A stretch of 64,000 bases of DNA, from the NCBI RefSeq assembly GCF_000160755.1, contig NZ_GG668576.1, positions 1,332,031 to 1,396,030 on the forward strand, written 5' to 3'. Numbering within the stretch: position 1 is the first letter of the stretch; each line of letters starts with the position of its first letter. The notes under the pieces were generated by a model that worked only from the letters and a program-made list of their open reading frames with translations, was not told the origin of the DNA and did no database searches. This document shows positions 1 to 18,271 of this stretch, one piece after another. The stretch comes from Proteus mirabilis ATCC 29906. Its GTDB lineage: Bacteria; Pseudomonadota; Gammaproteobacteria; Enterobacterales; Enterobacteriaceae. The position numbers and the translations under genes were made by a program.

Positions 1-143
1 CCAAACAGTTTGATTCTGCCTCCATTTTTATCGGAGCGCAAGAGGAAATGAAAAAGTCGACTTTTATTTTAGCCAATATATTAGTTAGAAACAAATTAAA
101 AGGAATAGGTATTAAATTACCAATTATTAATATAAAGAGCTAA
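1..143 (+). CDS. C-terminal end of an unidentified protein (cut by window edge)
   Basis: From base 3 an open frame runs 46 codons to a TAA at 141-143; its 5' part lies outside the window. The visible peptide ends in a basic, hydrophobic tail (…RNKLKGIGIKLPIINIKS) and contains IFIGAQEEMKKS. I do not recognise the family. It converges on the GH105 gene and the two stop codons overlap by 3 bases, so the two genes end tail to tail. It could be chance, but the composition looks like real coding sequence. Confidence 0.45.
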   Translation, partial: KQFDSASIFIGAQEEMKKSTFILANILVRNKLKGIGIKLPIINIKS

Positions 144-1210
144 TTATTTAACGTCATTTTTAATACTTCACTACCCGCTAATAAGTATGCTCCAGCGCCA
201 TAATCCATATTATGCTCAAATTTTACCTCTCGCGGATTAAATGCCGGAAGTTGTACCCAACCAATCATGCCATTATCATGAATACAGGATTGTAATGCTG
301 ACCACGCTCTATGTAATGCGGGAAAATATTCTTCTTTATTTAATTCACCCTGATTTATTCCCCATGCAAGTCCATAACAAAAAAGCGCGGTAGCTGAACT
401 TTCAGGTGCAGGGAAATTATCAGGATCTAATAAACTGGTGCGCCAAAAACCATCTTCATGTTGGTAATCTAGGATAGAACGCGCTAATTGTTTAAACAGT
501 GTTATATAACGATCGCGCTCATGATAATCATCAGGCATATATTGAAGAATGCGAGGAATAGAAGCCAAAACCCAACCAATACCGCGACTCCAAAATACTT
601 TTTCACCATTAGCTTCACGCATTTCATTTCCCTGACCATCAGGAATATAGCGGTGATCGCGGAAAATAAGTCCAGTTTCAGCATCACGTAAATGTTCAAT
701 AGCATCCCAATAAGCGGTATGCATATAATCCAAATAACGTCGTTCGCTAATAATTTCAGCCAAAGCAGCAAAACCAGGAGGTGCCATAAAAAGTGCATCG
801 CACCACCACCAGTCTTCACGCCCTGGTTTTGGATCATTTAGCATGATATCAAACGCTTTAATCGTCGGTTCAAGAATTTCAGATTGTTCAAACAAAGGAC
901 TTATCGCCAAATAAGCTTGAGCGCAAACATGATCATCCGCAAAACGTGCATTAGGACCTGTTCTAAATCCAGTATGTAAGGTGTAATTTAACACACCATT
1001 AAGGTACTCTTTATCTTGTGTCGCTTGCCATGCCGCACTTACACAGGTCCATAAAACACCGCGTTCCCAATCTGTATCTTTAATAAAACGAGTTTTACCA
1101 CTACGGCGACGAACACTACGAACTTGATGAGCCGATTGATAACGATAAACCCGTTTCATATTTTGTAACACGAGATCTCTTTGTAAAGCCTCTGTATTAG
1201 CGTGTTCCAT
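140..1210 (-). CDS. GH105-family unsaturated uronyl hydrolase (YteR-like)
   Basis: Predicted to hydrolyse the unsaturated uronic acid from the non-reducing end of lyase-generated di/oligosaccharides in the cytoplasm. The (alpha/alpha)6-barrel family is recognised from the WWWCDALFMAPP block (catalytic Asp about residue 138), FWSRGIGWVLAS and the ESSATALF block. These fit GH105 (YteR, YesR) better than GH88. There is no signal peptide, about 356 aa. I chose the ATG at 1210 because GGAG lies just upstream; an earlier in-frame start would run into kduD. It is the last gene of the minus-strand aga/kdu operon, 17 bp after kduD. In that context the substrate is probably an unsaturated uronyl-hexosamine (phosphate) rather than rhamnogalacturonan. 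The specificity is inference. Confidence 0.85.
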   Translation of the reverse strand: MEHANTEALQRDLVLQNMKRVYRYQSAHQVRSVRRRSGKTRFIKDTDWERGVLWTCVSAAWQATQDKEYLNGVLNYTLHTGFRTGPNARFADDHVCAQAYLAISPLFEQSEILEPTIKAFDIMLNDPKPGREDWWWCDALFMAPPGFAALAEIISERRYLDYMHTAYWDAIEHLRDAETGLIFRDHRYIPDGQGNEMREANGEKVFWSRGIGWVLASIPRILQYMPDDYHERDRYITLFKQLARSILDYQHEDGFWRTSLLDPDNFPAPESSATALFCYGLAWGINQGELNKEEYFPALHRAWSALQSCIHDNGMIGWVQLPAFNPREVKFEHNMDYGAGAYLLAGSEVLKMTLNN

Positions 1211-1227
1211 CCTAGTTCTCCATAAGA

Positions 1228-1983
1228 TTATCGAGCTAACCAACCACCATCAACCGCAATGGTATATCCATTGATATAATCACTAGCTTTAGAGGCTAAA
1301 AATATGGCAGGACCTGCGACATCTTCAGGTGTTCCCCAACGCCCCGCAGGAATACGCTCTAAAATAGCAGCATTACGCGCTTCATCAGCACGAAGTGCAG
1401 CGGTGTTATCGGTTGCCATATAGCCAGGAGCAATTGCATTTACATTAATATTATATTGTGATAATTCCGTCGCTAATGCTCGTGTTAATCCCATTACCGC
1501 GGATTTACTTGCCGTATAAGAAGGAACTCGGATACCTCCTTGATAAGAAAGCATTGACGCGATGTTGATTATCTTGCCACCTTCGCCTTGTTTGACAAAC
1601 TGGCGAGCCACTTTTTGCGATAAGAAAAACAGTGTCTTTTGGTTAATATTAATCACATCATCCCAATCTTTTTCACTAAATTGCAAAAGATCTTCACGGC
1701 GAATAATACCGGCATTATTCACTAAAATATCAATACGTCCCATCACCTTAACAGCCTCATCCACTAAAGCATCTAATCCATCTTGTTGGATTAAATTTTG
1801 CGTGATGTAATGAAAACGACGGCCTAACGCTTCGACTTTTTGACGCGTTTCAGGAGCATCTTGAATACCCACGCCAACAATATCCGCACCGGCTTGTGCT
1901 AAACCTATTGCCATTCCTTGCCCTAAGCCTGTATTACACCCAGTAACAATGGCAACTTTGCCTGTTAAATCAAATAAATTCAT
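1228..1983 (-). CDS. kduD: 2-dehydro-3-deoxy-D-gluconate 5-dehydrogenase KduD (SDR)
   Basis: NAD(P)H-dependent reduction of 2,5-diketo-3-deoxygluconate (DKII) to 2-keto-3-deoxygluconate (KDG), the step after KduI. It is a 251-aa short-chain dehydrogenase: cofactor motif TGCNTGLGQG at residues 14-23, NNAG at 89-92, and catalytic Tyr156/Lys160 in YTASK. The C-terminus IAVDGGWLAR is typical of KduD. The start at 1983 has AGAGG upstream; a longer frame upstream would read through a hairpin. It is followed closely by the GH105 hydrolase and preceded by kduI, so uronate release, isomerisation and reduction are co-transcribed. Confidence 0.93.
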   Translation of the reverse strand: MNLFDLTGKVAIVTGCNTGLGQGMAIGLAQAGADIVGVGIQDAPETRQKVEALGRRFHYITQNLIQQDGLDALVDEAVKVMGRIDILVNNAGIIRREDLLQFSEKDWDDVININQKTLFFLSQKVARQFVKQGEGGKIINIASMLSYQGGIRVPSYTASKSAVMGLTRALATELSQYNINVNAIAPGYMATDNTAALRADEARNAAILERIPAGRWGTPEDVAGPAIFLASKASDYINGYTIAVDGGWLAR

Positions 1984-17065: not shown

Positions 17066-17684
17066 TACACTTTCAGTACTGAAAGTGATCCCCGTGATCC
17101 AAATTAATCGCGCCGAAGATGCAATTTGGCTGGGTGAAATACTAACCCAAAATCAATTACCTATTGCTGAAATTACCTTTCGTACTCCAGCAGCCGCCAA
17201 AGCAATAAAGCTGATGAGAGAACACTTTCCTGAGCTTATTCTTTGTGCGGGTACCGTATTAACAGCGCAACAAGCTGATATAGCAAAAGAAGCGGGTGCA
17301 AGCTTTGTTATTTCTCCCGGTTATAATCCAAAAACCGTCGATTATTGCCTTCATAATGGCATTGATATTGTGCCTGGAATAAATAACCCAAGCCAAATTG
17401 AAGTTGCTCTTGAGCGGGGTTTAACCTTGCTAAAATTTTTCCCAGCAGAAGCTTCTGGTGGAGTAAAAATGCTAAAAGCAATGGCGGCACCTTACTCTCA
17501 AGTTCAATTTATGCCTACTGGAGGAATTAGTCTAAACAATGTTAGTGATTACCTCGCTATCGGGCAAGTTATCGCATGTGGTGGCAGTTGGATTGCTACT
17601 ACTGAGGCAATTGATAATCAAGACAAACAGACTATTGCTCGCAATATTCAAAATATCCATTCATTACTTAAGAATAAAGGATAA
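17046..17684 (+). CDS. eda: KDPG aldolase (2-keto-3-deoxy-6-phosphogluconate aldolase)
   Basis: Class I aldolase splitting KDPG into pyruvate and glyceraldehyde-3-P, ending the uronate branch. It has 212 aa, like E. coli Eda (213). The Schiff-base Lys130 lies in LLKFFPAEASGG and Glu42 in IAEITFRT. A phosphate-binding PTGGIS is present. I chose the ATG at 17046 (AAGGATAACC upstream); it overlaps kdgK by 20 bp, and the longer in-frame extension has no ribosome binding site. It may be a paralogue of a housekeeping eda elsewhere. Confidence 0.93.
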   Translation: MRQSIVDTLSVLKVIPVIQINRAEDAIWLGEILTQNQLPIAEITFRTPAAAKAIKLMREHFPELILCAGTVLTAQQADIAKEAGASFVISPGYNPKTVDYCLHNGIDIVPGINNPSQIEVALERGLTLLKFFPAEASGGVKMLKAMAAPYSQVQFMPTGGISLNNVSDYLAIGQVIACGGSWIATTEAIDNQDKQTIARNIQNIHSLLKNKG

Positions 17685-17689
17685 ACAAA

Positions 17690-18271
17690 ATGAAACAGGT
17701 TGCCGTTTTATTGGCTGATGGTTTTGAAGAAGGTGAAGCGGTTGTTTTTATTGATATCATGCGTCGCCTTGATATTCATGTAGATGTACTTTCTTGCATG
17801 GATACACTGGTATTAAACACCTATTTTAACACTAAGATCAGTGCTGATTACCTATTAACCGAAAAATTCACACACAGTTATGACGCAGTAATGATGCCGG
17901 GTGGTCCTAAAGGTACAGATCGTCTATGTGCAAATTCACTCGTGATTGATTTTATTAAACGCCATATTGCACAAGACAAATACATTTGTGCTCTATGCTC
18001 TTCCGGTGCAAAAGTATTAGCAGCACATCATCTTCTTGAAGGTCGTTATTACAGCACTGGTGATAAACTTGCTGATAAATATGATGATGGTCATTATCTT
18101 GACCAAGATGTTGTTGTTGATGGGAAATTTATCAGTGCCAAAGGATTAGGTGTTAGCTTTGAATTTGCCTTTACGGTAGCTAAATATTTGCTCAGTGACA
18201 ATGTAGAAAAAGTAGATTGGCAAGCTAATCACATTTACTTTAAACATTGGCCGTTGTCTTACCTTGACTAA
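17690..18271 (+). CDS. DJ-1/PfpI (YajL-like) family protein
   Basis: A 193-aa DJ-1 fold protein with the nucleophile elbow ICALCSSGAKVLA (Cys103), the acidic partner in DGFEEGEA (Glu14/15), and MMPGGPKGTDRL. Members act as glyoxalase/deglycase-like enzymes, chaperones or cyanide hydratases; the true reaction here is unknown. It lies 5 bp after eda as the last gene of the operon. I infer a role in handling reactive dicarbonyl intermediates (DKI, DKII, KDG) or damaged sugars. It could instead be an uncharacterised isomerase or hydratase. Confidence 0.8.
   Translation: MKQVAVLLADGFEEGEAVVFIDIMRRLDIHVDVLSCMDTLVLNTYFNTKISADYLLTEKFTHSYDAVMMPGGPKGTDRLCANSLVIDFIKRHIAQDKYICALCSSGAKVLAAHHLLEGRYYSTGDKLADKYDDGHYLDQDVVVDGKFISAKGLGVSFEFAFTVAKYLLSDNVEKVDWQANHIYFKHWPLSYLD

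Follow-up and report, generated by a model that had tools for sequence, protein, structure and literature searches.

The locus and its genes

We analysed a window of 64,000 nucleotides from Proteus mirabilis ATCC 29906 (contig C54, positions 1332031–1396030, in a genome of 4.03 Mb). The left end of this window holds genes for a GH105-type unsaturated glucuronyl hydrolase, a mannose-family phosphotransferase system (PTS), a DUF2264 protein, an exported sulfatase and the enzymes of two sugar-degrading branches, and the locus continues beyond the window on its left side. We propose that it serves the use of chondroitin sulfate through phosphorylated disaccharides. Position 10000 of segment L003 is the base preceding window position 1, and segment L002 adjoins L003 on the left (30 kb read in total). 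In the following list, matches to TIGR and NF models are above the model's cut-off unless noted.

143–1210, minus strand: GH105-type unsaturated glucuronyl hydrolase, probably cytosolic (PF07470; YteR- and GH105-named structures matched; no export-type N-terminus)
1228–1983, minus strand: KduD (TIGR01832)
2065–2895, minus strand: KduI (NF002091)
2938–4107, minus strand: NagA/AgaA-type amino sugar 6-phosphate deacetylase (TIGR00221)
4104–4538, minus strand: PTS EIIA, AgaF-like (NF040761)
4638–5573, minus strand: PTS EIID (PF03613; below the AgaE cut-off)
5518–6285, minus strand: PTS EIIC, AgaW-like (NF040757)
6335–6829, minus strand: PTS EIIB (NF008508)
6854–8056, minus strand: AgaS-family deaminase/isomerase (TIGR02815, 528.3 bits, just below the cut-off of 529.2)
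8057–9337, minus strand: KbaZ (NF012002)
9392–10171, minus strand: AgaR repressor (NF040755)
10172–10707, no strand: divergent control region, TTTCG-rich (11 copies vs. 1.0 expected)
10708–11943, plus strand: anaerobic sulfatase maturase (TIGR03942)
11989–13599, plus strand: exported sulfatase, candidate chondro-6-sulfatase (PF00884; Cys109-Gly-Pro-Ser-Arg113; export-type N-terminus)
13653–15128, plus strand: DUF2264 or 'GH154'-type glucuronate dehydratase (predicted), probably cytosolic (PF10022, E = 1.8e-79; PDB relatives 8oi4, 9o4u and 9nwf; no export-type N-terminus)
15243–16097, plus strand: KbaY-type tagatose-bisphosphate aldolase (TIGR01858)
16094–17065, plus strand: KdgK-like PfkB kinase (PF00294; NF052444, 324.9, below the cut-off of 400)
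16986–17684, plus strand: Eda, KDPG aldolase (TIGR01182)
17690–18271, plus strand: DJ-1/PfpI-like protein (PF01965)
L002 18377–19936, plus strand: Tat-signal sulfatase, relative of a 4-O-sulfatase (from the list of open reading frames, ORFs)
L003 81–965, plus strand: small porin-like protein (named by sequence appearance, not family scan)
L003 1003–3168, plus strand: autotransporter-like protein (named in the same way)
L003 3181–6246, plus strand: lyase I, 1021 residues (chondroitin ABC lyase I structures)
L003 6304–9345, plus strand: lyase II, 1013 residues (2q1f, then 1hn0)

The hydrolase ORF as called spans 140–1243 on the minus strand, and its start is probably the ATG at 1210 instead of the TTG at 1243. 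EIID scored 243 against an AgaE cut-off of 500 and 221 against 293 for the general IID model, both below, and the KbaY-type aldolase reached 404 against a cut-off of 542 under the narrower KbaY model. All genes named in an initial annotation of this DNA were recovered by the family models at the places it gave. The route that it called complete stood for KduI, KduD, KdgK and Eda and for AgaA, AgaS and KbaYZ, but no tagatose-6-phosphate kinase was seen in the locus, no search having been made elsewhere in the genome; in E. coli, this phosphorylation is carried out by a housekeeping kinase. The annotation had also passed over the DUF2264 gene at 13653–15128, recognized by PF10022. Its proposals that the window sulfatase acts outside the cytoplasm, that chondroitin is the substrate and that chondroitin lyase genes might lie left of the window agree with the export-type N-termini of both sulfatases (hydropathy screen) and with the ABC lyases I and II found there.

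The locus extends about 11.6 kb to the left of the window, where the second sulfatase, the porin-like and autotransporter-like genes and the two lyases all lie on the plus strand. Among PDB structures, lyase I aligned over residues 1 to 1020 with 1hn0 and 7eip, both chondroitin ABC lyase I, and the first match of lyase II was chondroitinase 2q1f, followed by 1hn0. PF02278 (PL8) has no match in the genome other than these two lyases. Because lyases I and II, the 4-O-sulfatase relative and the porin-like gene stand directly on its left, we take the locus, from these sequence relationships, to be the one through which Proteus uses chondroitin sulfate. Chondroitinase ABC from Proteus is a standard reagent in the laboratory. 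The lyase and sulfatase activities of P. vulgaris are long established (PMC9067506, PMC7793863; these and the other cited papers are available here as excerpts, to which statements drawn from them are limited).

The left sulfatase matched the chondroitin/dermatan sulfate 4-O-sulfatase 6j66 with E = 5.9e-230. The window sulfatase carries the site Cys-Gly-Pro-Ser-Arg at residues 109–113, and a Cys109/Pro111/Arg113 site is described for the N-acetylgalactosamine (GalNAc)-6-O-exosulfatase PB_3285 of Photobacterium (PMC8819143); the numbering is the same and the genes measure 1611 and 1608 bp, a comparison of numbers and not of aligned sequences. Its PDB matches were mixed, with carrageenan sulfatases first and GalNAc-6-sulfatases among those that followed. 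The chondro-6-sulfatase of P. vulgaris has, according to the excerpt, never been expressed recombinantly (PMC8819143), and the window sulfatase is a candidate for the gene of this classical enzyme.

Coupling of the hydrolase to the PTS and to DUF2264

The GH105-type protein is identical to one in two P. mirabilis records, shares 90–93% identity with those of nine other Proteus records and is the sole PF07470 match in the genome. In a scan of species genomes, the best 80 of 88 GH105 hits yielded 79 loci, 67 with a GH105 at 56–93% identity and 12 at 23–34%. Neighbours were counted within 10-kb flanks, so that a gene not seen in one of the 67 loci may still lie elsewhere in that genome. An EIID gene lay near the GH105 gene in all 67 close loci and in none of the 12 distant ones. 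EIIB, EIIC and EIID occurred together in 66 of the 67, the exception (L060) being a locus that starts only 4.4 kb from the GH105 gene. Neither a PTS nor DUF2264 was found in nine stretches (eight genomes) around the nearest other GH105 relatives in the order, which have intermediate scores and several of which adjoin sulfatases.

The coupling was further evaluated across the order in an evenly drawn set of 394 genomes that includes the source genome of the window. A close GH105 was present in 13, and an EIID of at least 55% identity was present in exactly the same 13, the next EIID standing at 46% (Fisher test, 1e-24, which overstates independence, the genomes being related). The linkage of GH105 and PTS claimed in the initial annotation is thus a genomic one that recurs among relatives. 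A second, more distant EIID (36–45%) occurred in six of the 13, which would fit a separate PTS for free GalNAc or some other sugar in those genomes. Moreover, in a tree of 41 PTS-linked and 11 other GH105s (30 of the 71 PTS-linked sequences being omitted for thinning), the PTS-linked proteins lay on one side of a branch with a support (SH-aLRT) of 93, below the starred level and with long branches flagged. Within the AgaVWEF equivalog set, IIA, IIB and IIC pass their models and EIID fails. The assignment as the common enterobacterial GalNAc PTS was rejected, the EIID cluster being separate and coextensive with GH105.

The family of the hydrolase was assessed from solved structures, as PF07470 spans both GH88 and GH105 and public annotations of the relatives read GH88, GH88/105 or GH105. 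PDB searches (E ≤ 10) were run with profile A1 (13 sequences) and profile A2 (52 sequences, drawn from 49 of the 67 close loci, from the window and from two distant loci). Both recovered the same ten hydrolase sequences, and A2 added three chance-level ones. Among the ten, 1nc5, 2gh4 and 4wu0 are YteR or YteR-like, 3qwt and 4xuv were named GH105 and 5noa 'Family 88' by their depositors, and 4q88, 3k11 and 3pmm bear no family name. The nearest, 4ce7, is named unsaturated 3S-rhamnoglycuronyl hydrolase and therefore also acts on an unsaturated glucuronyl residue; we take it to be a GH105 enzyme of ulvan breakdown. Structures of unsaturated glucuronyl hydrolase (UGL) of GH88 exist in the PDB, but no entry so named appeared among the A1 and A2 matches to E = 10, and identity with a GH88 UGL was rejected. 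This result, in which kinship was judged by depositors' names, agrees with the initial annotation, which had placed a GH105 in the usual position of GH88. D92 and D138 are kept in at least 97% of the 71 clade members and 90% of the 11 others. D138 aligns with the Asp of WWWCDALFM in 4ce7, and the conserved Asp of the GH105 core is presumably catalytic.

In addition, residues of the 71 PTS-linked GH105s were compared with those of the 11 others, L135 (a hit in an 808-residue frame) being dropped. Positions conserved in at least 97% of the clade and in at most two of the 11 others were termed clade-specific. There are 48 such positions, 11 of them Arg, Lys or His, and ten of these 11 lie in six loops predicted to face the active site (132 of 356 residues). 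Clade-specific acidic residues showed no comparable pattern, with three of seven in the catalytic-face loops. The loops were taken from the secondary structure of a model with a mean pLDDT of 90.4 and assigned through the toroid topology together with D92 and D138.

Three PDB structures matched the DUF2264 protein, namely 8oi4 (named beta-galactosidase) and 9o4u and 9nwf (named glucuronate dehydratase). BcGDH, a family member from a chondroitin locus, has no hydrolase activity and dehydrates terminal glucuronic acid (GlcA), letting a GH88 enzyme remove it; the founding 'GH154' member is also a dehydratase, and alanine mutants of ten active-site residues of BcGDH were inactive (PMC12269599). 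All ten are conserved, with E102, R106, N207, N208, W209, F212, Y258, R307, Y311 and Y372 aligning with E74, R78, N176, N177, W178, F181, Y229, R285, Y289 and Y354 (numbering derived manually from the alignment). They are invariant in 28 DUF2264 clade members, and nine of the ten are invariant also in 16 distant relatives; the alignment (A3) kept 25 of 26 DUF2264 loci, a 79-residue fragment from L082 being dropped. These similarities suggest that the DUF2264 protein is likely a glucuronate dehydratase. The hydropathy screen (not SignalP) detected a hydrophobic N-terminus in the lyases, the sulfatases and the porin-like protein and none in GH105 or DUF2264, so both of the latter are probably cytosolic.

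The DUF2264 gene is inherited with the hydrolase. Of the 13 GH105 genomes, 12 have a close DUF2264 (fragmented in G081). None of the 381 others has a close one, and a distant DUF2264 (25–33%) occurs in 16 of them. Lyase II-like genes showed a looser link, being present in seven of the 13 and one of the 381. Among 20 Proteus genomes, GH105, DUF2264 and lyase I occurred together in 19 and were all missing from one. In the 67 close loci DUF2264 was seen in 26, the 10-kb flanks falling short of its Proteus position. In one Proteus genome (G410, C1:741431–759355), the DUF2264 match falls into three fragments with in-frame stops, that of the second lyase falls into two, and that of GH105 runs only to residue 333, where a stop codon stands, as if this chondroitin locus were decaying.

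The arrangement, which had been presented as particular to Proteus, is more widespread: it was also found in Vibrionaceae, Psychromonas, Edwardsiella, Yersinia, Salmonella, Providencia, Pasteurellaceae and E. coli. Vibrio diabolicus carries an aga-type version on a plasmid, and no relative was found in the viral contigs searched. Eight loci (L087–L094) keep PTS and GH105 without AgaS, KbaZ, AgaA or sulfatase hits, and one of them (L094) combines an RpiB/LacAB-type isomerase with a pair of PL8 lyases. In E. coli, cassettes with PTS, GH105, DUF2264, PL8 lyase and autotransporter lie on a plasmid (L125 8454–20690) and a chromosome (L126 1886–19958). The order of this compact set is DeoR regulator, IIB-IIC-IID-IIA, GH105 (52% identity), DUF2264, hypothetical protein, PL8 lyase and autotransporter, and no GalNAc breakdown genes are annotated in the 24–25 kb shown of the two cassettes. 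A short stretch of the GH105 gene (10% of the query among the matches listed) was matched at the DNA level in 46 of 5426 E. coli genomes; one chromosome was examined and, from a plasmid collection, one plasmid. Upstream of the chromosomal cassette lie isomerase, oligogalacturonate lyase, dehydrogenase and cupin genes, with transposase genes between.

Several further features accompany these genes. The TTTCG repeats of 10172–10707, between agaR and the maturase gene, are possibly AgaR operators, the motif having been picked after the sequence was read. For an AgaR consensus allowing up to three mismatches, the window yielded 26 matches where 15.4 were expected, some of them in low-complexity TTTTATTT runs; L003 yielded 4 against 3.35 and L002 11 against 6.0. 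The TTTCG count gave the clearer signal. Between lyase II and the GH105 gene, 587 N (L003 9414–10000) abut the window start. At the same place, Proteus cibi (L035 11177–14345) has about six direct copies of a unit of about 516 bp and P. alimentorum (L037 11179–12203) has two, and no repeat of at least 60 nt was found there in P. hauseri (L036), so the copy number seems variable within Proteus. The copies were revealed by a general repeat search, a tandem-repeat search of L035 with a period limit of 500 bases having given none. An autotransporter-like gene adjoins the PL8 lyase both in Proteus (L003 1003–3168) and in the E. coli cassette (L125 18003–20690, as annotated). A DJ-1/YajL-like gene is present in eight of the 67 related loci, with kbaY in seven of these eight, and a DJ-1-like gene lies about 2.5 kb from a distant DUF2264 in seven of 16 other loci.

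The proposed route and competing explanations

Because the sole PF07470 hydrolase and DUF2264 lack an export-type N-terminus, the lyase products would have to pass uncut into the cytosol. No inner-membrane sugar transporter other than the PTS was recognized in the ORF lists of the locus, and since GH105 is probably cytosolic, DISACCHARIDE should enter via this PTS. PTS import of glycosaminoglycan (GAG) disaccharides phosphorylates C6 (PMC6837340, PMC5430744), which would also account for the prior removal of 6-sulfate.

We consider the following route probable. Outside the cytoplasm, ABC lyases I and II would convert chondroitin/dermatan sulfate into unsaturated disaccharides and a few saturated ones from chain ends, a chemistry known for the P. 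vulgaris enzymes and extended here by analogy. The two sulfatases would remove 4-O and 6-O sulfate and leave a free C6 hydroxyl, and the mannose-family PTS would import the disaccharide with phosphorylation at C6 of GalNAc. Inside the cell, saturated GlcA-GalNAc6P would be converted to the unsaturated form by the DUF2264 dehydratase, and GH105 would split the phospho-disaccharide into 4-deoxy-hexosulose uronate and GalNAc6P. The uronate would then pass through KduI, KduD, KdgK and Eda, and GalNAc6P through AgaA, AgaS, a tagatose-6-phosphate kinase from elsewhere and KbaYZ. We infer the sulfatase specificities, the import and phosphorylation of the disaccharide and the cleavage of the phosphorylated substrate; for cleavage of a 6-phospho-disaccharide, the basis is cellular location, genome content and co-inheritance. 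The intracellular opening step is probably carried out by two enzymes, DUF2264 and GH105, which are likely made for 6-phospho-disaccharides. Two new enzyme specificities are thereby predicted, a 6-phospho-disaccharide hydrolase and a 6-phospho-disaccharide dehydratase. In the literature excerpts, no account was found of how chondroitinase ABC products enter the cell and are opened there, and the combination of GH105, dehydratase and PTS was not found named in the listed titles or the excerpts of the open-licence literature searched.

The locus gives a gene-by-gene account of chondroitin use and a simple reading of an unexpected phenotype. A ptsH mutant of P. mirabilis HI4320 grew poorly on chondroitin sulfate C, which was said not to be a predicted PTS substrate (PMC13289894). 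Disaccharide import is the simpler reading, because the only unsaturated-uronyl hydrolase found lacks an export signal, yet the phenotype does not decide between this and import of free GalNAc.

Several observations weigh against the proposed route. Further sulfatase-family genes lie on four other contigs of the genome, one GH105 genome (G167) is without DUF2264, and six of the 13 order genomes are without a lyase II-like match. Among the 11 basic clade-specific residues, R198 is Lys in eight of the 11 relatives, and the enrichment of basic over other clade-specific residues in the loops is modest (p = 0.016); the pattern, seen on a model, could reflect GalNAc or N-acetylglucosamine (GlcNAc) rather than phosphate. 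Furthermore, BcGDH was assayed on chondrosine and not on a phosphate (PMC12269599).

The strongest of the competing explanations holds that the PTS imports free GalNAc only, the disaccharides being split outside or entering by an unlinked transporter to be split unphosphorylated by GH105, while the aga genes take the free GalNAc. EIIA, EIIB and EIIC indeed pass models named for the GalNAc transporter, and the window EIID is the only PF03613 match in the genome, so this PTS may carry free GalNAc, either alone or in addition to the disaccharides. Growth of the ptsH mutant on free GalNAc was greatly diminished (growth on some nitrogen sources was also affected), and its authors invoke cleavage to glucuronic acid and GalNAc before import (PMC13289894). 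Streptobacillus, moreover, has an ABC importer for GAG disaccharides (PMC5430744). However, no exported GH88/105 was found in the genome and no other importer was recognized in the locus. GH105 and PTS stay together in the eight loci without hits for AgaS, KbaZ, AgaA or sulfatase, and likewise in both E. coli cassettes, whose surroundings show no annotated GalNAc breakdown. EIID falls below the AgaE cut-off, and in six of the 13 order genomes a further, less similar EIID is present. Taken together, we regard import of free GalNAc alone as unlikely.

The dehydratase step meets a separate challenge, that DUF2264 is a beta-glucuronidase or other hydrolase taking saturated GlcA off directly. The family was first described as GH154 glucuronidase and galactosidase, but two members including the founder show dehydratase activity and BcGDH shows no hydrolase activity (PMC12269599). 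The conservation of the ten mutated residues and the near-perfect pairing with an unsaturated-uronyl hydrolase, a prediction for a priming enzyme, also argue for dehydration, and direct hydrolysis appears somewhat less probable still than import of free GalNAc alone. That GH105 acts on pectin or ulvan-like products, with an incidental place in the locus, seems very improbable: YteR, a GH105, acts on unsaturated rhamnogalacturonan (PMC12838403), the closest structure is the rhamnoglycuronyl hydrolase 4ce7 and an oligogalacturonate lyase gene lies upstream on the E. coli chromosome, but the lyases beside GH105 are PL8, neither PTS nor DUF2264 accompanies the nearest other relatives, several of which adjoin sulfatases, and 19 of 20 Proteus genomes have both GH105 and the chondroitin lyase. 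A stranded pectin enzyme was rejected on the PL8 neighbours and this joint presence.

Beyond Proteus, the proposed route may be one form of a mobile, widespread 'phospho-GAG' module, an extension for which we judge the chances about even. It would comprise a GAG-disaccharide PTS, a GH105 for the 6-phospho unsaturated disaccharide (via the clade-specific Arg, Lys and His) and a cytosolic dehydratase for 6-phospho saturated disaccharides. Its chondroitin form would be marked by sulfatases and aga genes. A second, hyaluronan-like form would have PL8 lyases without aga genes and would extend to E. coli, on chromosomes as well as plasmids. If such a module exists, products of lyases and of host hydrolases would feed one route. 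That a plasmid and a chromosome of E. coli carry this core as well suggests transfer between bacteria of the ability to use host-matrix sugars.

Comparison with known systems

The aga cluster of E. coli, which serves GalNAc and galactosamine, contains AgaR, AgaS, KbaYZ, an AgaA-type enzyme and PTS components. In contrast to it, the Proteus locus has an EIID below the AgaE cut-off and is joined to GH105, the dehydratase, lyases and sulfatases. Chondroitinases ABC I and II and chondro-4- and chondro-6-sulfatases are known from P. vulgaris. Lyase I here matches ABC lyase I over its full length and the sulfatases are candidates for the P. vulgaris ones; the available descriptions cover the enzymes, not import or the cytosolic steps. 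In a published table for Y. pseudotuberculosis, a GalNAc PTS with a chondro-6-sulfatase is listed near a chondroitin ABC lyase (PMC4641178).

A hyaluronan locus with a PTS and a 'GH88' has already been proposed in Vibrio alginolyticus (PMC8222515). With its two PL8 lyases, PTS and one 'GH88' unsaturated glucuronyl hydrolase it resembles L094, a likeness of gene content and not of compared hydrolase sequences. It differs from the Proteus locus in its substrate, in that the excerpt describes no sulfatases or aga genes, and in its named product, which is N-acetyl-D-glucosamine and not a phosphate (PMC8222515).

PUL25 of Bacteroides caccae comprises PL35, GH88, GH109 and the dehydratase BcGDH (PMC12269599). 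As in PUL25, a DUF2264/GH154 dehydratase is paired in Proteus with an unsaturated-uronyl hydrolase for chondroitin. Unlike PUL25, which has GH88 and no PTS among the parts described in the excerpt, the Proteus dehydratase is without an export-type start and stands with GH105 and a PTS; therefore its substrates are probably phosphorylated disaccharides.

A close parallel is the streptococcal hyaluronan route, composed of a PL8 lyase, GAG-PTS, GH88 UGL and DhuI/DhuD/KdgK/KdgA (PMC6837340, PMC5430744). Both systems unite in one locus a lyase acting outside, an EIIA/B/C/D PTS, an unsaturated-uronyl hydrolase (cytosolic in streptococci, probably so in Proteus) and the deoxy-uronate pathway, with phosphorylation predicted for Proteus. 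Instead of GH88 UGL and DhuI/DhuD, Proteus has the GH105-type enzyme and KduI/KduD. It also differs in a built-in aga branch, an added dehydratase, sulfatases that could open sulfated substrate to the PTS, and a Gram-negative setting with a porin-like protein. The Proteus locus is thus a chondroitin version of the PTS-fed GAG route, in which a GH105-type hydrolase takes the place of GH88 and a priming dehydratase is added.

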